From Argyresthia goedartella (Eukaryota > Arthropoda > Insecta > Lepidoptera > Argyresthiidae), in NCBI GenBank assembly GCA_949825045.1, contig OX463809.1, forward strand, positions 4,925,501 through 4,989,500: 64,000 nt of DNA, given 5' to 3'. Positions within the stretch are counted from its first letter, which is position 1; each line of letters begins with the position of its first letter. The translations under genes were made by a program, and so were the position numbers. Below, piece after piece: positions 22,901 to 53,100 of the stretch. Under the pieces are notes generated by a model, which was not told where the DNA came from, did no database searches, and saw nothing but the letters and a program-made list of their open reading frames with translations.

Positions 22901-25900
22901 TTGCGGCACCGTCGCCATACACATCATTAATCCTTCGAGCCGTTTCTGCAGCACTGGTGCCACGGTAGAACTCATACTCGTAAATAACGCGATATTTCAA
23001 GTTTTCCATTTTGTAAGCTCACTCAGCTTAAAAAAAAACAATTGAGGAAAAAACAAATGAATTATAATTTTAGAAACACAAATACATGAGTAAATAGCTG
23101 TATAAATGAATTTGGAATTCCTAACCATAGAGGAGATATTTTAGATCAAAGTGGCCAGTACGGCGAAACGCCAATTTCTTATGTAAGGACCTAATATATA
23201 CAGCGAGTGCGAACACGGGTTGAACGCCGTGTACTTGAGGAAACCATTAGTTAACAATTGGTTGCCTGATAGGCTGATGATGAAAAACTTACACACTTGT
23301 TTGTCTCCCTCAGACGCGAAGACGGCGAGGAGCTGGCTCGGCGGCTGCCGCTGATCCAGGACCCGGAGCTGATCTCCGTGATGCTGGACGAACTGTCGCC
23401 TCCCACCAACCCAAACCAGTCGGCGCAGGAGGCGCAGGTAGGCCAGATTACCAACCCTAACTAGTCGGCGCAGGAGGCGCAGGTAGACCAGAGTACTAAC
23501 CGCAACCAGTCCGCGCATGAGGCGCAGGTAGGCCAGACTACCCACCCCAACCAGTCCGCGCAGGAGGCGCAGGTAGGCCAGACTACCCACCCCAACCAGT
23601 CCGCGCAGGAGGCGCAGGTAGGCCAGACTACCCACCCCAACCAGTCCGCGCAGGAGGCGCAGGTAGGCCAGACTACCCACCACAACCAGTCCGCGCAGGA
23701 GGCGCAGGTAGGCCAGACTACCCACCACAACCAGTCCGCGCAGGAGGCGCAGGTAGGCCAGACTACCCACCACAACCAGTCCGCGCAGGAGGCGCAGGTA
23801 GGCCAGACTACCCACCACAACCAGTCCGCGCAGGAGGCGCAGGTAGGCCAGACTACCCACCACAACCAGTCCGCGCAGGAGGCGCAGGTAGGCCAGACTA
23901 CCCACCACAACCAGTCCGCGCAGGAGGCGCAGGTAGGCCAGACTACCCACCACAACCAGTCCGCGCAGGAGGCGCAGGTAGGCCAGACGGGGGACAGGAA
24001 TGCACAGCCCAGTAATGCCCGGCCCCGGAATGCCCGACCCCGGAATTGTGGGATTTGGGACGCCAATTCCGGGGCCGGACATTCCAAGCCGCACATTACT
24101 GGGCCGTGCATTCCGAAGCCGTGCACTGCCTGTTCGACCCCGGAATGTCCGGCCCCGGAATTGTGGGACGTCTCTCATTGGCTGGAAATACTGGCTTCTG
24201 ATTGGTCGAACATTTTAGATTTAACTTAGACGAATCTAAGGCCATGGTCATAGCAGTGAGGTATTTTTGTAAGCAAGTTTAACATTCACTTGACACATAG
24301 CATAACCTAATATTATTCATATTTGGTTAGTTTAAAATAAAAACAAACTCAATTCTGCTATTTGTTAAAAAAAATAGCTCTGTGAAGACTGTGTTCAAGT
24401 GCATTATATTTATTGAGTCAAATTTGGCTAGAGTAGGTTATTGTGGCTAAATTTCAATTGGGTTATAGGTTAGGTTGGAACTTAGAAGAAGCAAAACCGA
24501 AGCGTAGCGGAGCGGAGCGGAGCGAAGCGTATGCAAATAAAAAAAACATTTAATTATATTAAGATTTTAGATTAAGATAGAAGATTTTTTGAGAAAGAGA
24601 AACTATGAACACACCCTAATCTCTGATGTAGCAGTTGTCTATGGTACTCGGGACGCCAATTCCAGGGCCGGGCATTCCGGGGTCGAGCACTATTTTGTAC
24701 GGCCACGGAATGCTCGGCCCAGGAATGCCCGACCCCGGAATCGTGGGCTTTTGGGACGCCAATTCCGGGGCCGGACAATACTGGGCCGGGCATTACAGGG
24801 ACTCGGCCAGACCACCCACCCCAACCAGTCGGCGCAGGAGGCGCAGGTAGGCCAGAGTACCAACCCCAACCAGTCGGCACAGGTTGCGCAGGTAGGGCAG
24901 ATTGCTAACCCCAACCAGTTCGCGCAGGAGGCGAAGGTGGGCCAGAGTACCAACCCCAACCAGTCCGCGCAAGAGGCGCAGGTAGGCCCGACTACCCAAC
25001 CCAACCAGTCGGCGCAGGAGGCGCAGATAGGCCAGAGTACCAACCCCAACCAGTCGGCACAGGTTGCGCAGGTAGGGCAGATTGCTAACCCCAACCAGAT
25101 CGCGCAGGAGGCGAAGGTGGGCCAGACTACCAACCCTAACCAGTCGGCGCAGGTAGGCCAGAGTACCAACTCCAACGAGTCGGCGCAGATAGGCCAGAGT
25201 ACCAACCCCAACCAGTATGCGCAGGTAGGCCAGAGTAATGGGACATATTTCTGAACAACTTCCACTTTGGCACCAGTTGGATCAGATCAGCAATGTATTT
25301 AAATTGGACTGCGGAACAGTCCGCTAGGGGGGCATTGTTGGGCGATTTTCTGACCCCCCTGGCGCCTATCCCCGCCTAACTTATTGTTCTAACAGGCAGC
25401 ACGCCCGCCATTAGCCCGCAAGTACCTTGCAGCGTGTCCGCGCTTCAGCCAATTTCTACTTTCTCCCGTTCAAATAATAAAGCCTACTACTCTGCTCCAG
25501 GACAAGACTTCGGGGGTCAAGGCGCTCTGCCAGCTGTCGCTCGGGCTGGCGCTGGCCGCGTTGAAGAGGGCGCCACAGTCGCTGCTGCGTGTGGCCGGGC
25601 AGGAGACCCGCGCCGAGCTGCTGGACCAGGACGAGGCGCTGGTGGACGCTGCTATTGATGGCAAGGTAACGGCTGTTTCAAATATTCACTTGTAAGATAA
25701 AAGTATAGGTCGCCAGTCGTACCATGGTACACATTAAACCCTATTACCTGCATTCGATTGGTACAGTTATGAGGTTTGTTGGCACAAAATGAAATAGTAT
25801 TATACTGATGAATGCTCCTAGGCTAGCCCACGGCTTCAGAGAAGGCTCTGGTGTAGGTTGACACACGTTACTCGGTGGTGGTTATAGTCGAGGTTGTATA

Positions 25901-28900: not shown

Positions 28901-31900
28901 TTTCATTCTCTCCATCGCTGTAATGTTGACAAGCTATACTTGGACATCCTCCGGGAGCTTCACCGAAATAAAACTCTCCAAGTACTGAAACAAAGGCTCT
29001 CTGACTTCGTACATTTACTGGTGTGCTCGAAGATCTGCTGAAGACACTCGACTGGGAGGACAAAGATATCAATATTTACGGCCGATGTTTATAACATTAT
29101 CATTGCGACCTTATCTTTCTAGCCGAGAAAATTGCGGATCTTCAGAGAATGCTCGAAGACCTGCATAAAGCTTCGCTTGGGGTCGGTCTGGGGATGAACG
29201 AGTCCAAAACCAAGATTATGACCAATCTTGAGGGTCCTAAACCTAACATAATCGTAGGTAACTGTCGTCTAGACTAGAGACAGTGGGCGAATACATCTAC
29301 CTTGGACACAGTTTATCCTTTGGCTGAAATTCTCATGTGAAGGAGATCTCCAGGCGAATACAGCTGGGTTGGGCCGCATTTGGTAAATTGGAAGATGTCC
29401 TCAAGTACAAAATTCCTCAAAACCTGAAAACCAAGGGTAACCAAATGTAGGACACATTGGTTACCTTAGGCAGGACGCCTATACTCACTAAACGCCGATA
29501 CTTCAATGGTCTTCAAAATTTAAAGACAAAAAGGAGATTTTGATGATGTTAATGGTGTATTGTCTTTAACCTTGAATTGGTTCACAGTTAATAATTTATT
29601 GTTAAACGCTGGTAAAACCAAGTGTATCAAATTCTCACTTCCAAATGTCAGGCAAGTTGAGACCAGTTTAGTGTTAGACAACAGCACGTTAGAAATAGTA
29701 AATGATACGAAGTTTCTTGGAATAACTATTGATAGCAAATTGCAGTGGGGACCCCACATAGATAAAATGGCTGGTAAATTAAGTTCTGCGGCTTACGCTG
29801 TTAGGAACATCAGACAAAGCACGGATGTGGCTACATCTAGGCTAGTATATTTTAGTTACTTTCATAGTGTGATTTCCTATGGTATCTTGTTGTGGGGGAA
29901 AGCAGCGGATATTCAAACTATTTTATTTTACAGAAAAGAGCTATTCGAGCAATTTATAATTTAAAACGAACAGACTCCTTAAGAGAGCTTTTTAAAGAAA
30001 TTGACATATTAACAGTAGTTAGTCAATTTATTTTCGAAAATATAATGTATGTACGCAAGAACCTTACAACATTTTCCAAACTTAGCGATAGCTGTAATGT
30101 TAACCTAAGAAATTATCACAGACTATGTGCGCCCCGTTTTAGACTCGCGAAGGTTAGCAATTCTTTCAAGGGTCAGTGCATTCTCTACTACAATAAGATA
30201 CCTCTGGAGATTTTGAAATTGCCATTTGAGCAATTTAAAAAGCATGTTAAAGCGACTTTGTCGAAAAAGGGATATTACAATGTTCAAGATTACTTAAATG
30301 ACAGGACTGTATGGGGTTAATCTGGCTCAACACAGAACTTGCTGTTAATAATTTTGTAATTATTTATTCCTGCTTATTAATCATAACAATTAAATTTTTC
30401 ATATTTGTATTAGTTAAGCACAACCTATTTTTAAAAGAGATCTAAAAATCAATCTGTGGGAGTTTCTACGCCCTCCTTCTCCCACAGTGGTCCAATGTAG
30501 AGAAGAGGCAAAAAATGACGTTTGCTAAGTATATGTAAATATCTACAGTAATAAAGTACTTTTTGACTTTGACTTTGACTATGGATCCGTAACATCGGAA
30601 TCCATGCATAAAATCCGAGTAGCACAAAGGGCAATGCAGCGTGCTATGCTCGGAATCTCCCCTTCGCGCTCACGTATGCGAATCGCAAGGTTAAAGTGGA
30701 GATGGGCGGGACCCTTGGCTAGGAGGGACGACGGCAGATGGACCAAGGCGGTGACGAATGGTGGTCAAGGGACGCGCGTAGACCGAAAGACAGACCACCC
30801 GACCGATGGTCGGATGATATCGCCAAAACTGCCGGGCCGCAGTGGATCAGGTTGGCCCAGGACGGAAATAAATGGCGTAATGAACAGGAAGCCCTAACTC
30901 ATCAGTGGGTGCTGGAGTCTGGATTGATAGGTAGATAGATTTATCATCTATCTATCTATTTATATTTTATGGAACTGACACGCCACTAGCGTTTAGTGGG
31001 ACTTTACAATTTAAAAATCGTTTCTGAAATTGGCTGGAAGTAAGTTAAGCAAAAGCATATTACAAACACAGTGCCATCTACCAAAAAGTTTTGTAAACTT
31101 CCCCCTTCACTTCTATGTCACACGTGTCATATGTTAGGTTAGGGAAACGTCAGTCTTTCCTGATGACTATTTGATTTGAGTGACCCAGAGAACCGTAAAG
31201 GCCACAATTATAACATCTTGTGCATTGGTTTTACTAATAAACTCGGAACTGTCCGACAAGCTCTCAAGTGTACAAGAGTACTTTTGTGTGTTCGTCACAG
31301 AGCGGACGAGGCCGCGCGTGCCGTCCAGATGTACGTGTCCGAGGGCGTGGCGCCGCCCGCCGCTGCCGCCGCCGCGCGCTCACGCCTGCATGCGCTACTG
31401 CGCTGCGTCGAGCGCCTCTACGCGGCTGACCCGCGCCGTCTGAGGGACGACTACTGGCTGGCGTGCGAGACCAACCACTCGCACACGTACAGGTGATCTA
31501 ACTCTCGGCAAACTATGATTAGGATCTGGGTGTTACGCCCGCATCCACAAGAGCGCTACCGAATATAGAAAAGAACCGACAGTACCTGACAGTACAGCCG
31601 GGCGCATCTGACCGTGTACGCGGTATTCGGCAGCTACTGAATTTCTGATGCGGCAGGTACGCACGAACCTACCAGTTCAGAGATGTTAGTTAAACCGAAG
31701 ATAGGTTTGATTTTCCGTCGTTTCATTTTCTGATCCAGCTGTGTCCGCAGGTCGGGTGGTCGCGCCGCCACCCTGTATAAGTTCGTGCGCGGCTGGGGCG
31801 CGCTGCCGTCGCCGTCGCTGGGCGCGTGGCTGCGCGCGCTGGCGGCGCTCGCCGTGCCGCGCCACACGTGGGCGCTGCTGGCCGCGCGCGACCCACCTGC

Positions 31901-34900
31901 CGCCGCGCACCTGCTGCAGGCGCTGCATAGATACCGCCAGTGAGTACACGCCCATACTGTAGACACACGTAAGTACACGCCCACACTGTAGTCAACAAGT
32001 GAGTACACACCCACACTTTAGACACACAGTGAGTACACTCCCACACTGTAGACACACAGTGAGTAGACGCCCACACTGTAGACACACAGTGAGTACACAA
32101 CCACACTGTAGACACACGGTGAGTACACACCCACACTGTAGACACACAGTGAGTACACGCCCACACTGTAGACACACAGTGAGTAGACGCCCACACTGTA
32201 GACACACAGTGAGTACACAACCACACTGTAGACACACGGTGAGTACACACCCACACTGTAGACACACAGTGAGTACACGCCCACACTGTAGACACACAGT
32301 GAGTACACACCCACACTGTGGACACACGGTGAGAACACACCCACAATGTAGACACACAGTGAGTACACACCCACACTGTAGACACACAGTGAGTACACGC
32401 CCATACTGTAGACACACAGTGAGTACACGCCCACACTGTAGACATACAGTGAGTACACACCCACACTGTAGACACACCGTGAGTACACTCCCACACTGTA
32501 GACACACAGTGAGTACACGCCCACACTGTAGACACACAGTGAGTACACACCCACACTGTAAACACACGGTGAGAACACACCCACACTGTAGACCACCCAC
32601 ACTGTAGATACACAGTTAGTTCACACCCACACTGTATTCTCGAGGCGTCTATACATGGCCCATCTCAATAATGCGGGAATTACTGAATGAACTGCCGAGA
32701 TCTGATGGAATTGATTGTTGAGTGAATGAAAGTTAATACTATATATTAAGTAGTCAGAGAATAGTCTCTATTCCCTGTCTACGATATATTATGATGTTGA
32801 ATGATTTTTAGATTGTCTAAGGACCTGATTAATTTATTCAAATAACATTAAAAACGATTGCTTCAGTAAGGTTCCGTCTCGTTCCTGTTCGCTTGATTCT
32901 CGACACTTATTCTTTTTTCTCTTTATGTTTATAATAACAACTTTATGTTAAGTTGTTCCATAATCTGCCTGCCTTCATATTACCCTTAGGTGAGCGAAAC
33001 GAAATGTAGGTCACGTCACACTCAAACAAAGTAATGATTGTCTGCGTTTTGTTCATTGCGTTTTGCTTGTTCGTTTTGTCTGTGTTGTTTCAAACCTTTA
33101 AGGTAATAGATTATTTCCCAACAAGCCCAGTGTGTCTGGGTTCAGGCTTTTTGTATTTAATTGTTAATTTAGTGTTAAACCTCGTAAGGGAGGATATTAT
33201 AGTTTAGTTTTATATTTATTTTATAGCTATTGTAGTATATTTATTTATTTATTTTAAATGGATATCATAAACAATTTCACAGACAGTTTTTCTCTAGCTC
33301 TTCTAACGGCGACTCTCTTGGTTCAGGAGGTGTCGACTCCCTTGCGGACGCATCATTGTTTAGCAATCTGAAACGAGTGTTCAACAAGTCGGAGTTTAAT
33401 TTCAATGTCGTTCATATTAATGCCCAAAGCATTTCTGCTAGTTACGCTGATCTCCTGGAAGCTTTCAGTGATCAGATTATGCATGGTATTTTTGTATCCG
33501 AATCATTTCTGAAACCATCTCTTCCTTCCTCCATGTATTCTCTGCCAGGGTTCAGGCTCTATCGCAACGATAGGACAGGCAAAGCAGATGGCGGGGTTGC
33601 TATCTACTTACGTTCTGACATTCCGTGCAAAGTCATCTGCAACTCGCCAAGCCTGTACTCTAGTTCAGCTGAGTATCTCTTCCTTGAGATCAGCTTGCAC
33701 CACAACAAAATTCTTCTGGGTGTATATTACAGCCCCTCACTTCGTATCGATTACTTTGATTCTTTTGAATCTCTACTCAGTGACTTGACTCCTCTCTATA
33801 GTGACACTCTCATTCTCGGTGATTTTAACACCTGTCTCCTGAAAAATAACGCCCGCTCTGCCAAACTTAAATCTATTGTAAATTCCTCTAACTTACATAT
33901 TCTTCCCCTTGACGCTACTCACTTTCAACCGCACTGTATTCCCTCCCTTCTCGATCTCATGATTATCTCCAACATAGCCAAGGTGGCTGCTCATGGCCAG
34001 CTTAATGCCCCATTCTCCTATCACGATCTGGTGTATGTTTCATACAAAATTAGGCTCCCTAAGCGCAAAGTCAAAATCCTTGATATTCGAAGCTTCAAAG
34101 GTGTGAACCTCGATTCCCTAAAATCAGATGCCTCATCTGTCGATTGGACCCCCGTTGTAACTGGTGAGACCGTTGATGACAAAATCCTGAAGTTCAACTC
34201 AATTGTCCTGGGGCTGTTCGACAAGCACGCACCAATGAAAAAGGTCAGGGTAAAACATTTTCCTGCTCCGTGGTTGACAGACGCTATCAAGCGTTTAATG
34301 GCAAAAAGAAACCGTGCGAAGGGGCGATATAACAGAGACCCAACCGATAACAATTTCCTAACATTTAAACGCCTTCGAAACCTATGCAACCGCATGTGCC
34401 GTGACGCCAAGCGACGCCACATCTATGAGCGTATAGAAATGTACACCCCAGCTCAGGTCTGGAAATTTCTTAAAACCCTTGGTGTTGGCAAGTCCCAGGA
34501 ATTTTCTTCAGGTGATGTCGACCTCAACGGTCTTAACCAGTTCTTTTCTTCTCCCCCCCTCGTGATAGACCCCGCCACAAAGCAGGCAACCCTTCGTCAT
34601 CTACGGTTGAAGGCTACAGTCTGTACCTCACCGTTCAACTTTAGTCTCGTTGGAATCGGCGCAGTTAGAAAGGCAGTGCTAGCGGTCACATCCAAAGCTG
34701 CTGGTGGCGACAACGTCAGCCATCAGATGATCCACAGCGTCCTTGAAGAGTTGCTCCCTCCAATTACCCACATCATAAACTTCTCTCTATCAGCTAGATC
34801 TTTTCCTAGTCTGTGGAAGAAAGCTCTTGTCATCCCACTGCCCAAAAATTCCAATCCCTCCTCCTTCAAAGATTACAGGCCCATATCTATTTTACCTATT

Positions 34901-37900
34901 CTCTCCAAAGTCCTTGAATCCATTGTCCACTCCCAACTCACCTCCTACCTTTCATCAAACAAACTTCTCAATCCTTTCCGATCTGGCTTCAGACCAGGGC
35001 ATAGTACTACCACAGCACTCTTAAAAGTCAGCGATGATATACAGCTAGCCATGGATCAGAGGTTGGTTACGGTGCTGGCCCTGCTTAACTTCAGCAATGC
35101 CTTTAACTGCGTCGATTTTGACATTCTTGTCGCTATATTAACATCGCTGAATGTCTCCTCCCACGCTGCTGGCTGGTTCGACTCATACCTGAGAGGTCGT
35201 CAGCAGCGCATTAAGTCTGAAGAGACCGAAACTCAATGGTGTGATCTTTCCTCAGGAGTGCCTCAAGGTGGTATTCTCTCTCCTCTTCTTTTTTCAGTCT
35301 TTATAAACTCCATCTCCGACGTCCTCTCTTCTTCGTATCATCTGTACGCAGATGATCTACAAATTTATCGCCACTTTTCCCCCTGCGATGTAGTTTCATC
35401 CGTGGAGGCACTGAATGCTGACCTCGAGAATGTGAAAGACTGGGCCTCATCATACGGGCTGTTAATAAACCCGAATAAATCACAAGCCATGATTTTAGGA
35501 ACCAGGCACACTCTTACCTTGTTACAAAAACCCATTGTTCCCGTATCATATAATGGCATCACAATAGAGTACACAGATAAGGCGAAAAACCTTGGGGTTA
35601 TTTTTGACAACCAGCTGTCTTGGTCTCCACATGTCAGCGAGGTCAGCAGACGGGTCTTTGCGTCTTTTCACTCCCTCAGGCGTCTGCAGTACTTCTTGCC
35701 GCGGCAGACCAAAATCACCCTTGCTCAGTCCCTTCTCCTGCCGCTAATCGACTACGCCGATGTCTGTTGGGCGAGAGCGAACGAAGATCTTCTGAACAAA
35801 CTCGAACGACTTCAGAATCTCGGGATTCGGTTTATCTTCGGGCTGCGCAAATTCGACCACGTCTCTCAATTTCGCAAAGAGTTGGGGTGGGGTGGCTTCC
35901 GATTCGTCGTCGCCGAGACTCCCATATTCTTTTTTGTCTTTTCAATATATTGAAAAATCCGCGCTACCCCAGCTAGCTACCTTCGAGACCGCTTTGAGTA
36001 TCTCTTTTCAGGAGATCGGCAACGGAGATCTCACACGGTCTCACTCTTAGCCTCATATGAGCACTCCTTCAGGTTGCAGGCGGTCCGACTGTGGAAGGCA
36101 CTTCCTTGTGCGATTAGAGACAGCCCGAATCTTTTCGCTTTCAAAAACCGGGTAAAAGAGCACTTCCTCTCTCTTTTGTGATAGTTGTAGTATGTATATT
36201 ATTATTATATGTAAACTTTATGTACAGGTTTATGTATGTATTGATACGTATTTAGTAGTTTGTTAGATACGAGTATGTATTTTATTTACCGTTTTTTAAA
36301 GATATGTAATTTACTTATATGTATTTTATTATTGTTTAGATATTGTGCACTGCCTACCCTTTATTGATAAAATTTCCTGTCATGCCTTGGGTTGCTGGAA
36401 GAAATCTCTTTTTAGAGATAAGCTCGCCATTGTACGTATGTTTTCTCTTAATGTATCTTTTTTAAATAACTGTGTTCAATAAAGAATTATGAATGAATGA
36501 ATGAATGAAGGTGTCGTTAGATAATCAAAATAGAAACAACTTCAGGGTTTAAAACATATGTTTATTTTATTATAAAAATCATAATAATTAGATACTTTTT
36601 GAGCACGTTTTTTCAAAATCCCATAGATGGCGCTTTGGGCGCCCCAACTTGTTTTTTTCTTCCGTGCATGTGCATGTGTTAAATATGGATGTTTGAATTA
36701 TTTGAAAGTGCGTGATTATGGGATGCAAATGCGAGAGTTAGGTACTTGTGCTCAGAAACGAACGAACGACAGAGTTACTTTGGATATTTCATTCATACAT
36801 TATTTTATTCACATCATCCTATCACTAAAACGAATTATGACACTTTTGGCTATTCTGTGTTCAGATTTTCGTTGGAAGTGGAATTTTGGGAAATAATGTT
36901 ATTTTTAAGCAGAATTCAGACCAGTTTCAGTGACCAGACTGAATATGGTAACCAACAACGAGTGATCCCTTTGGAATATCGAGTTTGGTGATCTTATGAC
37001 ATTTGTTTACATTGTTGGCCTAGTTAGAACTCCCAAGGTAGACACACAGTGAGTACACACAGCACTTGTAGCGACCACTACTTTGAGGATGGGCGCTACA
37101 GAGAAGCGGCCTTGACCCAGCAGTGTACCGATGTATGCTGTGCGTAATGACTTGATGAGTTATCTTTTGGACGTTTCCTGCGTAGTCATACGGAGCATGG
37201 CGCATCACATGGACGGCTGTCCTCTTTGGTCGCTCGAGGGCAAACCCCATTTAACGTACAAAGGCTGTTACACAGTGAGTACACACAGCACTTGTAGCGA
37301 CCACTACTGTGAGGATGGGCGCTACAGAGAAGCGGCCTAGACCCAGCAGTGTACCGATGTATGCTGTGCGTGATGACTTGATAGTATTAGTTATCTTTTG
37401 GACGTTTCCTGCGTAGTCATACGGAGCATGGCGCATCACATGGACGGCTGTCCTCTTTGGTCGCTCGAGGGCAAACCCCATTTAACGTACAAAGGCTGTT
37501 CTATGTCTGTTGTCAGCCTTCCCTTCAGGTTCAATATGTAGGTTTTTAGGTATATATATATGTTGTATGCATGTATTTACCATATAACGAATACACTATT
37601 TATGTTGTTACCCTTTCTATATGTCGTTTGTCTGCAATGAAGAAATAATGAATGTTCAAATTATGACATAGCTAAGGATGACGTTGGCACCACCTCAATA
37701 TAAGTTCGAGGCCTCGTTGCTAACAGTAATGTCACACATTATAAATTAACAGCATTACACTTTAAAAGCTACAACGTGCGAATGTGTTTTTATTTACCAA
37801 TAAGGTATAATCGAAAAGCCGTTTTCAACAACGGTTCTTATAAAATAACTCACCGGTTATTTGCATCTTTTTAAAAGAGCCGTTATTCCCACCTTTGCTC

Positions 37901-40900
37901 ATTAGGCCGTTTAACTTTCCATATCCTGGCTTCTCATTCCACAGGAGTCTCCGCGCGGACCCGTCCCCGTTCTCGGACCAGCTGCAGGCGTCGTCGCTCG
38001 GCGCCTCCGCCGTCGTCACGCCGGCCGCCAGACCCGGACGCATGTTGATGCGGCAGGAGGAGGTACAATATGCTTTATTATCTCTGCTAAGCAAGGGTTG
38101 TTGCTGCCTAGCTAGTGTGTTAGAAATGGTCACTCACTTTCCTTCGGCGTATTGGCGCCAGCCGCGTTGCATGTACGTACGGGTCGACATTCACGCGCTC
38201 TTTTCCAGAAGTGGCGTACTTTTTTTTACTTTATTAGGGTTGTTATCGAGGGTCACCAGTGAAGCGACGAGGTTATGCTGCGTTGGCTGTGGATATTTGA
38301 TCCTTAAAAGGGAGATCTCCGCGCTCCAGGTTGCTACGCCTGGGGACCGCTGGTCCGACAGCTTATGCTCGGAAGTTCTATATAATAGTTAGTAACTAAA
38401 CTTCTCTTACGCGATGCAGGAACGATTGTTAATTGTTTCTGTGACCCGTGGTGACATCTGTTGACAACTTCTGTCAACTGGTACGTTTATTTTTGCTAGA
38501 TATATTAGATAGTTATTATGTGGATCGCCTGATAGGTGACGCCACAACTTACAGGTTTATTATTGGTATACAGATTTTAAGGTACAGAAAAATGCTTATT
38601 TCTAAGCCAATTACAATTTTTAGTTTATGTTTTATCGATAAGTTTACTAGGTGCATCATAGCGCAGGTTTTTGTTCAAGTTAAGGCTAATTTTAAATGAT
38701 ACTGTGCAGGTGGAGGCGATGATAGCAGCTCTCAAGCTGATTGCAGCGGTGGCGCGCGTGGATTCAGCCGCCTGTATCGCCATCTGCGAGAACCTGCAGT
38801 GGGACGCCATCAACGTCATGTTCGGTGAGCCCTGAATGAATGACGTAGTAGTCGTAAAGCTGTGTCAGAGACATTATAAGGCTGCTTGAAATCTTCTGAC
38901 GGTTATACCTATATTAACATCCTTTACCAAACTGCACTGAGCTAGCTTGGTCCACCACGTAAATTCAACATTGCTTGATTCCAAGTAAAGGCTGGGGTTA
39001 CCTTTTTTTGGTCCAGCTATGTGACGTGTCCCATACGTGGCTCTGTCGTGTGTCGCAGGTCTGGTGTGCTGCCACGTGCCGCTACTGCTGAAGGCGGAGC
39101 TGCTGCTCACCCTGGCAGCGCTGGGGAGCTGTGGCGCGGTCGCGGGCCGCGTGTGGGCCTCGCTCGAGGCAGCCCAGCTGGTGCACTCTCTGCACACGGA
39201 GCTGCAGGAGGTAAGCCTCACATCATCCAGGATTACCTGCGTGGAACGTGTTAGCGTAAACACCTTTGTCCGACATCGTGTTTAATAATATTCAAAATCC
39301 GTACAAAAAGTGAAAAGTTACAATAGAATTTAGAATCACTGTAAAGCCTACAAAAAGCTGCGCAAGATTGTGTAAAGTGAAGCAAAAATAGTGACCGATA
39401 TTAAGGATAAACAAAGCATTTTTGTTTCAAAATCTTCTGTTGGCGATGTACCCCTGACCTACGACAACTTGCAGACGCTCGCTGCGGTGAGTCACCTCCC
39501 TTGGCTGTATCGGCTGACTTGTTGAAATACTCTGCTCCTGATCTATAACACAGGCACTAACGCTAATTTGCGTACGAACATTGCTAACATTTTTTGCACA
39601 GGCGCTTTTGGCAAACTCAAAATTCGATCTGCTGTATCTACTATCAACTTTATTACTAAGATCCTGAAAGTGACATTTATTAGAATTAATTAGTGGAGAT
39701 GCCAGTTGACCGCTCGCCCGTTAAGAATTCTACATCTCAGCTTCGACTCAGTATGACAACCGGTAGCCAATGTTCTTCTGTCCCTAATCTTTGCTCCGAG
39801 TCTGACCTGGATTCCAATATTACAATGCGATATTCCAAAAGAAAAAGGCTTGAAGTCCTGGGTTCTCCCGACTTCAAAATGGAGCTCCAAAGCATGTTTA
39901 GGGAATTCAAAGAAGATCAAAAACTGCAATTTGGCGAACTTAATGGAAAAATTGACGATCTGAAAAAACAAAACGCTGAGCTTAAGCAAACTGTCGAGTT
40001 TAATGCGGCCAAATATGATGAGTTTTTAAATAAACTAGAGCAGCTCCAATTAGAGAAAAAGGAGGATCGTAAGCAGATTCGTTTGATGGAGGAGAAAATC
40101 GAACAACTGGATCGTCAAATTCGTTCTACAAGTATTGAGATCAGAAATATTCCAACTCATGAATCGGAAACCAAACAAGATTTGGTTAATACATTAGTCA
40201 AATTGGGAAAAGCCATTGACGTGCCCATTCTACCAACTGAGGTCAAAGACATTTTTCGCATCAAGTCTAAATCACAGCAGAACAAAACCATTATAGCTGA
40301 ACTGACTACTGTAATCGCTAAAGAGAATATTGTTAGGTCTTTAAAGGAATTCAATAAAGTCCATAGCAAAGATGAGAAACTTAACACAAAGCACCTACAT
40401 ATTCATGGACCGAAACTTCCGGTTTTTGTTTCTGATAATCTTACTCCTATGAACAAGAAACTGTTCTTTTTGGCACGTGAGTTCGCTGCCTCTCATGATT
40501 ACAAATATTGCTGGACTTCTTTCGGAAAGGTCCTTCTGCGGAAAGGCGAAGGCCTTCCACTGATTCGTATTAACTCAGAAATGGATATTCGTTCTCTGGA
40601 ACACCCTAAGTGACTAGCAATCATCATATTTAAAATTATACTTGTTTTTTTCCTAGAATTTTTTGAAGTAATGTTTCTAATTTTCTATTCATATGTTTGG
40701 ATTTATTATAAGTTTTGCCTAGTTCCATTTGTAACTGATGACTCCACTTCATGTTCAATACACATTTACCCCATAAGCAACTACAGCTCTTTCACAAAAT
40801 ACACATACACACAAACGAAATCAAAATCTTACACTGACAATTACACCCTAAAAATCTATCAACATATAATCAAAAATATTACATCTAAACACAAAAGCAT

Positions 40901-43900
40901 TGTCACAATACATTACCCAAAGCATAAACAATTACTGAATTTAAATAATTATGTTACAACAAATTTCTACAATTTTTACGTATTATCAGATATTACTTCC
41001 CTCACACTTGTTACCACTACTATTAACCTAAAGCTACTGAACCTGATTCATATAATCATTATTTTTAAAATTCACTCCCCATAATATAGTGCAGTCCGAC
41101 GATACGAATAATCCTAAATGTATTAAACTAAGTGATGCAACCAGTTTTTCTCGATATGCGAAAAACGAGACTTTTGGAAATGGAATCTCGGTAATTACTG
41201 TTAACGTACAAAGCATTTTTTCAAATCTAGACCGATTTCTTCTGTTTGTGGCTGGCCTCAATTGTCCTATTGATGTCCTGGTCTTGACAGAGTGTTGGAC
41301 ATCTGAACAGAGAGTGCCTCCAAATATAACAGGTTACAAAACGTATTACACTAAGTCAAGTATTAATCAGAATGATGGTGTCGTTGCCTATGTTAGTAAC
41401 GACCTTGAAATGCTCAAATGCTCAAGAACATAACTTATTTCAAGGTAACTGCCTTATTCTACATCTACTTAGTGTTGATACTAAAATTATTTGTACTTAC
41501 CGTCCACCATGCTTCTCGAACCCTTCTGGTTACATAGACTCTCTAAATGTTCTTCTTGAAGATATTAAGTGTCCAAACGTTATCTTAGCAGGTGACTTAA
41601 ATATGGACATTTTGCCGGGACAAATATTAAATCATACTGCCAATTACCTGACTCAAATGGCTTATCACGGTCTTCTTCCTGGAATTAATATACCCACTAG
41701 ATATACCAGATGCATTGATCACTATATGATTAAGTCCAGACACAAATGGTGGACATTTGTGTTTGACAGGTTCACTGATCACTCTCCAATTTTATTAATT
41801 ATTGATAACTCGCATACCAGGCAAGCTAAATCTAAAGACAAACTTTGTGTGGATTACAATGCTATCAGAGAAGCACTTGCCCTTCAAAACTGGGATGAAT
41901 AATTTTCCCTTTCTGATGCTAATGTGGCTGCGGAGTATATTGTGGGAAAACTAAAGGACATAGTTGGTAACTGCACAAAAACTATAAAAAATTCCTGCAG
42001 GAAACGGCCATTGAAACCATGGATTACCCCCGGTGTACTAAAATCTCTAAGAAAAAGGAACAAGTTACAGCTCAAACAAAAGAAAACTCCTAACGACAAC
42101 AACCTTAACAACGAATATAAACAATATAGAAATACGTGTAATTTTATGATAAAAAAATTAAAAAAACAATACTATGATACAAAATTTGAAATTTACTCTA
42201 AAGATAAAAAAATGACATGGAAGCTTATTAAAGAGGTTGGAAATATTAGTTCTACCAATATACCTGCTCACAATTTATTAAAAATTACAGAATCCAAAAC
42301 AGAATCACTAGATATTACTAATAAGTACTTTAGTACTATTGGCAAAAAACTAGCTGATGAAACTCTAAACAAACTCAGAACAACAGACTCTGCATTGGCC
42401 TCCAAGGCTAGATCTAATAAAACACCCGTCAACTCATTATCTATGTTCTCCACTGATGAAGTAGAGGTTAGACACACGATTAATAGCCTTAAATCAAGCA
42501 GTGCGCCAGGAGTGGATAACATTCCGACAAAGATAATAAAAGATAATGATGATATCCTTGCTAAGCCCATTACATTCCTTTGTAACTTAAGTTTTGATAC
42601 TGGAATTTTCCCAACAATCTTTAAGAAAGCTGTTGCTACCCCAGTTTATAAAACAGGTGATAAATTACAGCCAACTAATTATAGACCCATTTCTCTACTA
42701 TCCTGTCTGTCTAAAGTGATGGAGAAGATTGCAAATAAAAGACTTGTCACGTTTTTGGAAAATAATGATCTCCTAGTTGAGGGACAATTTGGATTTCGTA
42801 AGAATAGATCTACTGAAGATGCTGTTCTGCACCTTACATCTATTATAGTTAATCGACTAGAAAGGGGGGACAAATGTCTGGGCGTGTTCTTAGATCTGAA
42901 GAAGGCGTTTGACACTGTCTCCATCCCAATATTACTCTCTAGTCTAGAAAATCTCGGAATACGGGGCCTCCCTTTGCTGTGGTTCACAAATTATCTTAAT
43001 GGAAGGAGCCAGACTGTACGTGTAGAGGGTGAGGAGAGTAATCCTGACGCTTGCACTTATGGTGTTCCCCAGGGAAGTACGTTAGGGCCTACTCTCTTTC
43101 TCACCTACATAAACAGTCTTTGTGATAATAAGTTAATAGGAGCGGACATTTTAATGTTTGCGGATGATACCGTTTTATTATACAGTGCTAAAACCTGGAA
43201 AGATGTTTTTGAAATGGCAGAAGTTGGTTTGAAGCATGTGACGGCATGGCTTGAGGATAGCTTGTTGTCTCTTAACACCTCCAAGACTAAATATTTATGT
43301 TTTCGGAAAACTGATGCTACAAATCCAGATAAAAATTTCAAATTGAAAATTCATACTTATCCTTGTAATAGGTGTGCGCGTGAATTACCAGTATTACCTT
43401 CCTGTGATTGTCCTATTCTAGAACGTTCAAGCACCACTAAGTACCTTGGGGTTGTGGTAGATGATAAGTTATCCTGGATTCCGCAAATAAATTCTGTTGC
43501 CGGTCGTACTAGGAAACTTATATACGTTTTTAAGAGTCTTAGGGATGTTCTTAGTCAGGATATGTTAATACGTACTTACAAGGCGCTGGCTGTATCTGTT
43601 CTCACCTACTGTATTACTTCTTGGGGGGGTGCTGCAAAGACACATTTGATAGAGGTTGAGCGTGCACAACGGGCTCTTCTTAAGGTAATGAAAAGATTAC
43701 CTTTTCGCTACCCTACGACTACATTATACAAAGAGTCCAAACAACTTACAGTCAGGAAGTTATACATTCTCCAATGTGTTTGCAGATTTCACCGTAATAT
43801 CCATCCAATTCCTGATCACATTGGAAAAAGGGTAGATATAGTCCCATTACCCAACTTTAGGTCTGCCTTTGCTAGAAGACATTTCTTATACAATGCACCA

Positions 43901-44084
43901 CGTATTTATAACAAACTAAACAAAAGCAACTCCATAAGACGACATAATATTTATACACTTAAAATATATATACACAACTGGTTTAAGGAGTTTGACTATG
44001 AAGCAATTGAGCAATTATTTAACTATGCATCTTAAATCTTTACATTTCACGATCACGCACACACTCACACACACGCACTCACCC

Positions 44085-47100: not shown

Positions 47101-50100
47101 ATAATATAAGTATCCAGATTATGTCACAGTTGAATGATCTCCCTCCAGCCCCGGACCCGGGCGACGACAACTTCCACCTGGTGACGGTGTGCCGCGTGCT
47201 GCAGCACGTGCAGTGCTACCCGGGCGCGGCGGCGTGCGCGCTGGCGCTACTGCGGCGTGCGCTGCGCAGCGGCACCGGCGCGCGGAGACTGCTCGCTGCG
47301 GTGACGCACCACCATCATACTGCTGATGAGATCAGGTATATTTACTCACTCAGTCTTGTGAACATCGTGGAGTGCCTCTAACGACGAAACTTCCTATGCC
47401 TAGTAGGCAGTAAACAAAAACTAATAGCATGTCGAAAGGGCCTCGTCCGTATCCGTTAGCCCTCCTGCGCGTGTTTATTGTTTTTATTTTATTCTTATTT
47501 ATAAGAAAACGAACGGTCACGTATTGAGTTGCATGAAAAAAAATACATGCTTTGCGAGAGTTATTTAATGGGCTTCACAAACTATAATGCGTTTTTGACA
47601 GCTTAAGCAGTTTTGACACGTGCCACACTTTTGACAGTTGTCATAGAAAATCCTACTATTTCCATTGAGTATTATTTGGGAGGCAGTTACTCACGTCCGA
47701 AGGAGATACTTGGAACCTACAGCACTTCACGTCCTCCCGGGTAGTGCTAATAGGAGCAACAAATCAACACTAAAGTTTCCAGTTTCTCGCGAGAACCTGT
47801 GCCAATGTACCCTAGTCATGCTTGTTTATCTAAGTATAATATTTATCTATATAAGTATGTGTATCGTTGTCTAGTACCCAAGATACAGGGAATCCGAGTT
47901 TGGGGCTAGATCAATGTGTGTAAATAGTGTCCAAGGTTTATAATCAAATACAGTGACATCTATAAAAACAAGTGACATTGGCGATATTAACCTGGCTATA
48001 AGACCGCCATTAATTAAGAAATTGAATTGAATTGAGTATCATTTCACCACATCGTTTTGCCCGCAGGCACGGGTTCGTGGAATGCATGGAGGCGCCGTGC
48101 CCGGAACAGTCGGACGGCGCGGACACGGCGCTGAGCTGCGCGGCGCTGCTGCACCAGCTGCTGCCGTCGTCGGCGCCCGACCTGGCGCTGTGGCTGCTGG
48201 GGCTCCAGCCGGCTGTGAGTCACTACTATAATGATATACTCCGAGCGATTCTACTCACGACGACCGCGTCAACTTCTTTGTATCATTGTTTGTTGGCTCA
48301 TTCATTAATTATCAGCTCACCTCGAATCATTGCTGGGCATAGCCCTCTTATCTCTCGCAACAATCACGGTCCTGTCTTGCAGCATTTTGCCGTTCATTGG
48401 CTCTCAACGTAGTCAATCTTCATTGTGTATGACATGTTTGAATTAGAAATTAAAAATAGCATACGGGGAGTTCAAATTTCGCTATGGCCTTGCATCAAAA
48501 TCGAATGTCCCTGCGGCTCATAAACCCTTGATCGATCAAGCCGACCTGGTGGCTGCTTGGGGCTTAGGCTGCATAAAATAACTCCAAATTATAAGTTCAT
48601 GCGTCAGGTTAATCATGCGTCAGGTTGTATCAGGTCAAGTTCATGCATAAGGTCATGCGCGTGGAAGTTAAAAATTTCTTCGGTACAAAAGGTTGTAAAA
48701 AAAGCTGACTTTGGTGGTTTCTCATTCCTTTGTTTTCCAATATTTAATTAAGAAAACATACAGTATTTATCTACTCAATGGGCTCTAAACAACGATATGC
48801 CACTCGATGGGGCAGGACAATTATTTCTTTCGATCCCCCCCTTAGGTTTATGGGAGTCCCCTTCAAAACATTTAAAAAAAAATTGGCAATTTATATGGCT
48901 TCAGGTCTGTGTGTGAATAATTGAAGAGTATGGACACGTGAGGGACAACCTAGCGCTCCGCTTCGATCCTTCGGCTACGGAACCCTAAAAAGGAGATGCA
49001 GCTAAATTATTGAACTGCGAGAAGTAGCCAAACAACCTGTTTCCTCATACAGATAAACCGCACGTCCCTGAACGAGCCGGGGGTGGGCGGTGCGCCGCGG
49101 ACGTGCCTGCACTCCCTGCTCGACATACTGGAGCGGCACATCGCCGGGCCCGACAATACTGACAGGTATGTGTGTACTCATGTTCAATGCTTGGTTTGGT
49201 AGGTATTAGACTAATCAAGCTGGCTCGACGACAAGTCTTAAGACATAGATTGGACTCAAAAATCTATTCTAATATCTGGCTCGACGACAAATCTTAAGGC
49301 ATAGATTGGACCCATAAATCTATTCTAATATCTGGTTCGACGGCAAATCTTAAGACATAGATTGGACCCAAAAATCTATTCTAATAACTGGCTCGACGAC
49401 TGGTTCGACGGCAAATCTTAAGACATAGATTGGACCCAAAAATCTATTCTAATAATTGGCTCGACGACTGGTTCGACGGCAAATCTTAAGACATAGATTG
49501 GACCCAAAAATCTATTCTAATATCTGGCTCGACGACAAATCTTAAGGCATAGATTGGACCCATAAATCTATTCTAATATCTGGTTCGACGGCAAATCTTA
49601 AGACATAGATTGGACCCAAAAATCTATTCTAATATCTGGCTCGACGACAAATCTTAAGGTATAGATTGGACCCAAAAATCTATTCTAATAACTGGCTCGA
49701 CGGCTGGTTCGACGGCAAATCTTAAGACATAGATTGGACCCAAAAATCTATTCTAATAACTGGCTCGACGACTGGTTCGACGGCAAATCTTAAGACATAG
49801 ATTGGACCCAAAAATCTATTCTAATATCTGGTTCGACGGCAAATCTTAAGACATAGATTGGACCCAAAAATCTATTCTAATATCTGGTTCGACGGCAAAT
49901 CTTAAGACATAGATTGGACCCAAAAATCTATTCTAATATCTGGTTCGACGGCAAATCTTAAGACATAGATTGGACCCAAAAATCTTTTCTAATATCTGGT
50001 TCGAAGGCAAATCTTAAGACATAGATTGGACCCAAAAATCTATTCTAATAACTGGCTCGACGACTGGTTCGACGGCAAATCTTAAGACATAGATTGGACC

Positions 50101-53100
50101 CAAAAACCTATTACTGATTTCCTGCGACTCTGGCTTCTAGCATTCCAAACATTTTTGAAACTGGCTATTTCCCGCTAATATTATAAATTTGAACGTTTAT
50201 GAGTAATGTTGTCTCGATACTTGCTAGTTTAGAAGTCCACGCGGACGAAGTTGCCGGCACCAGCTAGTGTAGAATAACGTCACAGGCGCGTCATCCGCAC
50301 CAAATGTGCGGACCCTAATGATGATGGAGAGCATAGATCGGAAACGATATCGATTCCAGCAGCTCTCTTCGGTTTCTGTGAAATCAATCCGGATCGCTTT
50401 CAAATAGATGTTTTGAAATGTGTTCGCCGACTTCGAACCGACGCTGACCGATCAGAAGCGCTATTCTGACTATGATGTCTAGAAATTTCTATGGAAATTA
50501 ACTACGTGTTTGTGTTTTTTGTTTGACGACACTGACTAGTTGCCAATTTGAGGTTGTTATTGTATTATTGTTCGTAATTCATACTTCTTTATTGCCACAG
50601 ATATTTAACCTGTAGACTAGGGTAAACCCTAATAAGGAACTTTTATAAAATTCACGCTAACTCAGGTAACCCCTAAGCTTATAAGGAACCTCTGAGGCTG
50701 GGGTCAGAAAATTCCTTATTGTGCCGTTTAAACACTGTCTGACCGTGTTTAGTCGGTTAGGTAAGTAGTGTGTGGACCATCATTGGTTTAAGTGATACTG
50801 GCAACAAAATCGGGCAAATAAAACTTATTTCCGGGGAACCATTTCGCATTGCTCGCGTTTACTGGTCTTGGAGTCCGTTTTTGTTAGTGATTATGTATGG
50901 CAGGTATAGTAAAATAATCTATGGATTGATAACGTATATATATAGGATAATAAAAGTTGTAAATTTGATGCATAATAATCACATCTGTGTTTGAAATAAA
51001 AATCAAATACTACCACGAAACAACGTTTTTTTTTTCACTGCTGTACTTTGACTACCTACAACAGAGAGAGACATAATTTGATAGGGTGAAAGGTCATAAA
51101 ATCAGAAATAAGCATCAATATATATGTGTTCACCTTTTATTTCAAAGACATAATTCTTGAGAAGTTATCCATAATTTAGTACACATTGCCACATAATTTC
51201 GACAATCCGGCGCGGAGTGTCGCATCCTTATTAAGAGAAAACATATCTACAATGGCGAGACTCTAAAAAGAGATTTCTTTCAAAAAACAAAGGCATGATA
51301 GGCAAATGTATCATTTAAGAGTAGGCAGTGCACAATATCTAATATCTAATCTATACCAAAATACATATGAAGTAAATTAAATATCTATAAAATATGGAAA
51401 ATAAAATACCTATATACCAGGCTACTAAATTAGCACCAATACATAAATATATTGTTATTGTTGTGTATTATGTAATAATGATGCCAATCGCAATTGAAAT
51501 ATCGACCAATGAGAACACGAGTCGCAGTTGCATTGACATGCAAAGTCCTATAAAAGATAGCTCATGTCAAATATTCGTGATTTGATTAGACCCGTTTTCC
51601 ATTGTGTTTGACATTAGAATTACATAATAAGGCTGCTGAACGCGATAATGTCACACGTCATCTTTAGTGATTGTAATTTGATTAGGAAGAAATCTGGATA
51701 GGTACAGAGAAATACGAGACTCGCTACAGATCGTACGCATGTGTTCTGTGGGTCGCAGAGAGTGCACCGCGCTGACAGAGAGCTGCTACCATCTGCTGTA
51801 CGTGCTGTGCGCGCGCGACAACACCTCGACGCCGCTGCTGCGCTTCCTGCGCACGCGCGACTACGCGCTCGAGAGACATCTCAAGGCGACCATCAATCTC
51901 GAGGTGAGACCTTACCTTACAAAACCTATTCCATGATACAAGCCACCGATTAGTGAAAACCGTATCACACTCCCCTCGGTAGTTCTCGAGGTCAGAAGGT
52001 ACAAAAAAAACGGATAAAAACTAAAAAAAAATGCTGCATATGTGGTATACAGTTTGACACAAAAAAATTGTCAACATTAAAATAAAAAATCCATCAAATT
52101 CGATTCCAAGAGTCCTTCGGCCACCCACCCTCTATTTTACAAAACTGCCCGTGTAATATGCCTGGTTTGCATTACACCCCGCCCTCGCTTACCCGTGCTG
52201 CCGGAAATGTTTCCCATGATGCCGACGTGGCAATGTCGATGGCTCTGATCTATATACTTTTCGCTCACACTCATGCAGCTGTCTCAAGCGATTTTTTGAC
52301 TCCCGCACAATAAACCGCCAACGGAGGGAGCACGGGCAGTGGACAATAACATGACGAGCGGCATGACAAGTGAGCGCTTATTTTATGCTCCTGCTCACTT
52401 CCCTGCCCACTTCGGTGTAATGTAAACGGATGAATACAAACAGCGTGTTGTGTCCCCCCAGCGCGCGTCGCCGACGTCACTGTCTGCGCGCTCGTGGGTG
52501 CTGCGCGCCTGCGCGGTGGAGGCGGGCGCCGCCGCACGCAACCGCTCCGCCGCCACCGCGCTGCTGCGGGCGCTGCAGCCGCAGGTAACTGTCGCAACCA
52601 CATGCCTTACACACTGATCAATCCAATACAACACATTTATTTAATTTAGAGCTCTTTCACACGAGCAGCATGCGCGTCGGCAGCAGTCGACGGCAGGCAA
52701 CAGTAGATTTTAACGGGTCGACGAACGAAGTCTGCTGTCGATTGCTGCCGACACGTTGTTAGCCTGCCGTCGACTGCGCACGTGTGAAAGAGCTCTTCGT
52801 TATCTGCCAAGCTGAAATGGATAGCTGCGGCGATGGGCTAGCCCCCTGTCATGCAAAATGGAGTATTGAATGACTGGCTAAGTGTGGGCACAATGTGCCT
52901 CTACCAACCCGTATAGGAAAAGGCGTGACGCGGTGTATGTTTGAAATGTAACTATGCCGATGTATGCCAGATATATCTTTCGACGGATGCCTGCCGGCTA
53001 CAATATACAATATAAGTAACTTGAACGAATTCACTGAATTCTAGCATAACATTTTTATATAGGCACATACATTGCTTCTGGCCCCACACTAGGATACCGT

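Follow-up and report, generated by a model that had tools for sequence, protein, structure and literature searches.

A donor-carrying minisatellite at the first base of a Nup205 intron in Argyresthia goedartella

The window examined here, a 64,000-nucleotide stretch of the Argyresthia goedartella genome, contains exons of a gene for Nup205, a core scaffold component of the nuclear pore. Of eight exon candidates on the forward strand, six match the Pfam family PF11894 (Nup186/192/205) with E-values of up to 0.1. Three of the six pass the curated cut-off of 28.7 bits, scoring 44, 77.7 and 55.3 bits, and three are weaker (E = 0.085, 6.1e-4 and 1.3e-4); the other two candidates gave no match. The pair of exons on either side of the intron described below, translated alone (101 aa), had no Pfam match and retrieved only a designed protein in a search of structure chains. 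When four exons were joined over this intron, the resulting 203-aa translation matched PF11894 with an E-value of 3.7e-12 across profile positions 412–615, and was colinear with residues 411–626 of the solved Nup205 chain 6lk8 (E = 9e-4), which we take to be the Xenopus protein. In the chain search a designed protein outscored 6lk8, a second Nup205 sequence, 5ijn (E = 0.065), fell below two Reticulon 4 receptor chains, and a third Reticulon 4 receptor row ranked last. The proposed junction of position 31939 with 37945 is supported by this homology to Nup205.

The intron created by this junction is 6,005 bp long (31940–37944), and a minisatellite array begins exactly at its first base, where the forward strand reads ...GCATAGATACCGCCA/GTGAGTACACGCCC... 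(Table 1). A first-pass annotation had described 22 copies of a 30-bp unit starting at the first intron base; the copy number and the exact start at 31940 are correct, while the first unit proved to be 29 bp long. The 22 donor-like starts lie at 31940, at 31969 and at 31999 + 30k (k = 0 to 19). The first six bases are GTGAGT in 19 units, GTAAGT in one (31969) and GTGAGA in two (32329 and 32569), which confirms the earlier count of 20 of 22 units with an intact GTRAGT. The degenerate GTTAGT forms a 23rd site, and unique sequence resumes at about 32637. Tandem Repeats Finder (TRF) reported a period of 30 and 21.9 copies at 31938–32593, with 91% matches and a score of 1072. As GTRAGT is expected at only about 0.0005 per site, the array is no chance sequence, and its 22 unit copies are a single amplification history rather than 22 separate observations. 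It had also been noted that the exon ends in CCA and that most copies follow ACA, and we found ACA directly before 14 of the 21 later donors. Between 31992 and 32613 several reading frames of about 200 aa run through the array without a stop, on both strands; this is a mechanical result of a unit length that is a multiple of three, and is no evidence for a gene.

Table 1. Positions of the features at the Nup205 array, numbered from the first base of the window
Feature	Position	Strand	Remarks
Nup205 exon preceding the array	31751..31939	+	189 bp; ends ...CGC CA, phase 2; colinear Nup205 and PF11894 matches
Minisatellite of 22 units	31940..32598	+	unit GTGAGTACACACCCACACTGTAGACACACA; first unit 29 bp, others 30 bp
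Donor 1	31940..31945	+	boundary CCA/GTGAGT; sole frame-keeping donor of 22 (frame test)
Donor 2	31969..31974	+	CAC/GTAAGT; predicted to be the most accessible of 22 in naked RNA
Block of four units, 120 bp, repeated	32059..32298	+	120/120 identity; recent higher-order duplication
Degenerate array end	32599..32636	+	GTTAGT at 32615, after TAGATAC as in the exon tail
LINE-type retroelement in the Nup205 intron	33236..36501	+	endonuclease and reverse transcriptase; limits approximate
Isolated 27-bp patch resembling the array	37034..37060	+	26/27 matches, 23 bp exact (37038–37060); 5 kb downstream, same intron
Next Nup205 exon	37945..38062	+	acceptor CACAG/G; 3' end placed by eye at GAG/GTACAA

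When donor 1 is joined to 37945, the translated frame stays open through the end of the next exon. Every one of the later donors (21/21) leads instead to the same premature stop, CAG TGA, and the proposal that only the first donor is productive is therefore upheld at the level of the reading frame.

The first-pass annotation had also argued that GTGAGT is retained beyond what would be expected of a neutral minisatellite. The hexamer is exact in 19 of the 22 units (20 if GTAAGT is allowed), and the same count of 19 was obtained for five other hexamers of the unit, TGAGTA, CCACAC, CACACT, ACTGTA and ACACAC (positions 24–29). Another 12 of the 30 hexamers reach 17–18, and counts fall to 9–15 for the 12 overlapping the two most variable columns; in this tally, hexamers crossing the unit border are penalised by the 29-bp first unit and by the array end. 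The six donor columns hold three non-consensus cells, a mean of 0.5 per column against 1.5 elsewhere, and include four of the 14 invariant columns (of 30). When six columns were drawn at random, sets as low as the donor were obtained with P = 0.20 for cells and P = 0.19 for distinct variants. Among contiguous six-column windows, 5/30 by cells and 7/30 by distinct variants were as low or lower, the donor included. Excess conservation of the donor hexamer over the rest of the unit was thus not detected, in a comparison to which one array brings little power, and the claim did not hold up. In variability the donor window shares the lowest rank, and weak selection on it could therefore still be present. 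The 120-bp block of four units that is repeated without a mismatch implies that the array turns over and that its units are not independent; found within one assembly, this duplicate is also the one indirect sign of possible copy-number variation among individuals. Recent amplification suffices to explain the retention of GTGAGT, and selection maintaining the extra donor copies is not supported.

Pairing with U1 and local folding were estimated for naked RNA. With U1 forced into the splice-site register, donor 1 is the weakest of the 22 at -3.0 kcal/mol, a typical later unit reaches -5.2, and four sites reading ACG/GTGAG reach -8.3 to -8.9. The best free duplex of donor 1 (-7.1 kcal/mol) equals that of a typical later unit, and those of the four ACG sites range from -8.3 to -10.8. 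The low register value of donor 1 probably arises because an isolated pair at position -3 costs a loop. An inverted repeat, ACAGTG/CACTGT, is predicted by local folding to bury the later donors in hairpins. At the 150/100 setting positions -1 to +3 were unpaired with a probability of 0.024 in donor 1, 0.224 in donor 2 and at most 0.009 in the other 20. Folding in the smallest window left donor 1 (0.040) less open than two donors beyond the second, at 0.065 and 0.063. Donor 2 was more open than donor 1 at all four settings, and 11% of 500 arrays built from shuffled units were as buried as the real one. When the cost of opening was added to register pairing, 14 of the 21 later donors had a net score of -0.2 kcal/mol or higher and donor 1 had +0.6. 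The suggestion that each unit is a plausible U1 binding site is weakened by the predicted folding, whose cost is roughly equal to or greater than the gain from pairing for these 14 later donors, and likewise for donor 1 as computed. By net score donor 1 ranks 13th of the 22; the donors ahead of it include 31969 and all four ACG sites, and five later donors are better by at least 2.7 kcal/mol; substituting the typical-unit value of -5.2 for -3.0 moves donor 1 arithmetically to sixth. Because naked-RNA energetics favour five later donors, the dominance of donor 1 is something we can only infer. Leakage, if there is any, should on this model begin at 31969 and the ACG units. A search of 31700–38100 against Rfam at gathering scores found no match to a structured RNA family.

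The origin of the array may be reflected in the exon itself. Aligned with the 20 bases that precede the terminal GTTAGT, the final 20 bases of the exon score 5, sharing CTG, TAGATAC and CA with two 2-base gaps. This score was matched by none of the 91 20-mers that precede GTRAG in the window and by 2.9% of the 928 that precede CA/G. The tail of the consensus unit scored 3 against the exon, with 3.3% of the pre-GTRAG and 16% of the CA/G null sequences scoring as well, and the tail preceding the donor at 31999 showed no resemblance (score -0.5). Three unit tails were tried, and the null sets omit sites in 31900–32650 and 37000–37300. A duplication spanning the exon/intron junction is thus suggested, though not proved, as the seed of the array. 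Searching the 1.1-Gb assembly (89 contigs) for the array unit returned at least 11 matches, and all 11 listed lie inside the Nup205 array; such counts are lower bounds, common words having been skipped. With these matches, and with no match at E = 1e-4 in any of 20 sampled 10-kb stretches of the genome, the array unit was rejected as a dispersed repeat. The single-locus result is weakened by the fact that the genome search missed the 27-bp patch in the array's own intron, and the genome may hold short copies at other places. That patch matches the array with E = 6.9e-6 in a search of the window plus 200 kb, and we infer that it was copied within the Nup205 intron.

In humans, the CBS gene carries a VNTR that, going by the reported title of Lievers 2001, is associated with reduced enzyme activity, and Turri 1995 is said by its title to describe a minisatellite with multiple splice donor sites in IFI6 (6-16, G1P3). 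The closest precedent is intron 18 of human ABCA7, where a VNTR with a 25-bp unit and 23.7 reference copies has the canonical exon 18 donor as its first GT (PMC5954066). The same source states that the second donor is used in 2 ± 1% of transcripts in the measured tissues, keeping one unit and causing a frameshift and a premature stop; that this unit retention is independent of VNTR length, which ranges from about 12 to 427 units; and that skipping of the next exon and reduced expression do depend on length (PMC5954066). The Nup205 array resembles that of ABCA7 in starting at the exon border with the canonical donor as its first GT (the junction being placed by protein homology), in having a unit of minisatellite size in at least 12 slightly varied copies (22 units and 91% matches in Nup205), and in that retained units lead to a premature stop, by translation at all 21 later Nup205 donors. 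It differs in its 30-bp unit, that of ABCA7 being 25 bp long and lying in a C-rich region. The CBS VNTR, c.1444_1467+7(16_21), is given in the accessible text as a 31-bp unit in 16–21 copies (PMC2630376). On our own reading of this notation, the unit spans the exon end and the first seven intron bases, so the donor is repeated as in the Nup205 array, although the CBS unit is mostly exon-derived. For IFI6, the excerpted text of one source describes two downstream units of the minisatellite that serve as donors, giving three mRNA species, and the donor variants are said there to encode different isoforms (PMC4526556); PMC2572611 does no more than cite Turri 1995. Here too a minisatellite supplies several donors, whereas on this account the later donors of IFI6 yield coding isoforms and the 21 later donors of Nup205 yield CAG TGA. 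An array of alternative coding donors of the IFI6 type was ruled out for Nup205 on this ground. The 12-bp unit of IFI6 also sets it apart. With these three precedents the anatomy of an amplified donor has already been described, contrary to the earlier statement that no such case was known, and the Nup205 array joins them as a further member. The literature on repeated donors, searched with queries that did not name Nup205, gave no Nup205 example, and no repeated donor was found in the available portions of PMC2812944, PMC3039753, PMC12783039 and PMC8724738, the last of which deals with several U1 per pre-mRNA.

We consider it probable, at about 80%, that the array is a minisatellite, likely a VNTR, that carries the intron's own 5' splice site, with donor 1 in use, slight leakage to later donors and no selection on GTGAGT. 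A short segment across the exon/intron junction would first have been duplicated, and slippage or unequal exchange would have enlarged it to an array within a weakly constrained intron, halting at the exon because coding sequence would not tolerate it. Exon definition would let donor 1 produce the ordinary Nup205 mRNA. Now and then a later donor, perhaps donor 2 before the others, would be chosen; part of the array would then stay in the message, TGA would follow at once, and the transcript would go to decay. GTGAGT would persist because the units are young and homogenised, and not through selection on later donors. ABCA7, with its canonical first GT and its leak of 2 ± 1% to a stop, counts in favour of this reading. 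As to origin only, an unrelated minisatellite may by pure coincidence have come to abut a donor, a view that overlaps functionally with the preferred reading and that we hold to be possible but rather unlikely. Comparable arrays, defined by TRF as having a period of 10–100, at least 4 copies and at least 120 bp, numbered 2 across the 200 kb sampled from the genome in 20 stretches and 4 in the 64-kb window, the Nup205 array included. At the sampled density, and assuming the genome to have on the order of 100,000 introns, chance alone would place an edge of about 11 arrays (1 to 40, given Poisson limits for a count of 2) no more than 5 bp from a donor, so that one donor-abutting array is unremarkable by position. 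Coincidence is at odds with the suggestive likeness between the end of the exon and the terminal unit and with the lack of a genome match outside the array, in a search that misses short matches.

The remaining alternatives give the array a function. Structural masking, in which donor 1 wins because the inverted repeat conceals its later competitors, draws on the low accessibility of 20 of the 22 donors at the 150/100 setting, but donor 2 there is far more open than donor 1 and stays ahead at every setting, two later donors exceed donor 1 in the smallest window, and donor 1 is 13th once U1 pairing is added. We regard masking as improbable, and hairpin masking as an adapted feature was rejected, since equal burial arises in 11% of shuffled arrays and donor 1 gains no advantage in net U1 score. 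Slightly less credible still is a selected decoy array, whose later donors would be kept for sequestering U1, for suppressing premature polyadenylation in a long intron or for adjusting Nup205 dosage through a leaky stop. The intact hexamers, the identical stop from every later donor and the four ACG/GTGAG sites that beat donor 1 in U1 pairing by both measures are in keeping with it; the non-significant conservation excess (P = 0.19–0.20), the predicted burial of 20 of 22 donors in hairpins and, in ABCA7, the independence of unit retention from VNTR length all argue against it. The most doubtful proposal is that copy-number-variable poison donors set Nup205 dosage, each unit adding a competing U1 site, of which four pair clearly more strongly than the true donor, and diverting part of the transcripts to truncation at the same codon and to decay; if true, an essential nuclear-pore gene would be under the control of a tunable, length-dependent rheostat. 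The array offers a natural test of how the spliceosome chooses among many near-identical 5' splice sites. Taken with the arrays in ABCA7, CBS and IFI6, it points to donor-spanning minisatellites as a recurrent feature, and a genome-wide survey for them would be possible.

The same intron holds other repeated sequences. The open frame of the LINE-type element (33236–35950, 905 aa) matches RVT_1 with an E-value of 6.9e-34, a 92.9% copy in the same genome (L026) extends to 36501, and 6 of the 20 sampled stretches contain matches longer than 200 bp to the element as a whole (33236–36501). A 231-bp sequence occurs twice in tandem at 37044–37500, with about 96% identity, and opens with the patch of 23–27 bp (37034–37060) that is identical or near-identical to the unit of the upstream array, 5 kb away; the 231-bp sequence had no match at E = 1e-4 in the 20 sampled 10-kb stretches. 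Further long minisatellites lie in the window at 23414–23988 and 24805–25158, both with 45-bp units that appear by eye to be of one type, and at 49220–50112 with a 56-bp unit. Open frames of 306, 176 and 703 aa at 39693–44035 form another LINE-like set, and the frame of 703 aa is, by eye, a putative reverse transcriptase.
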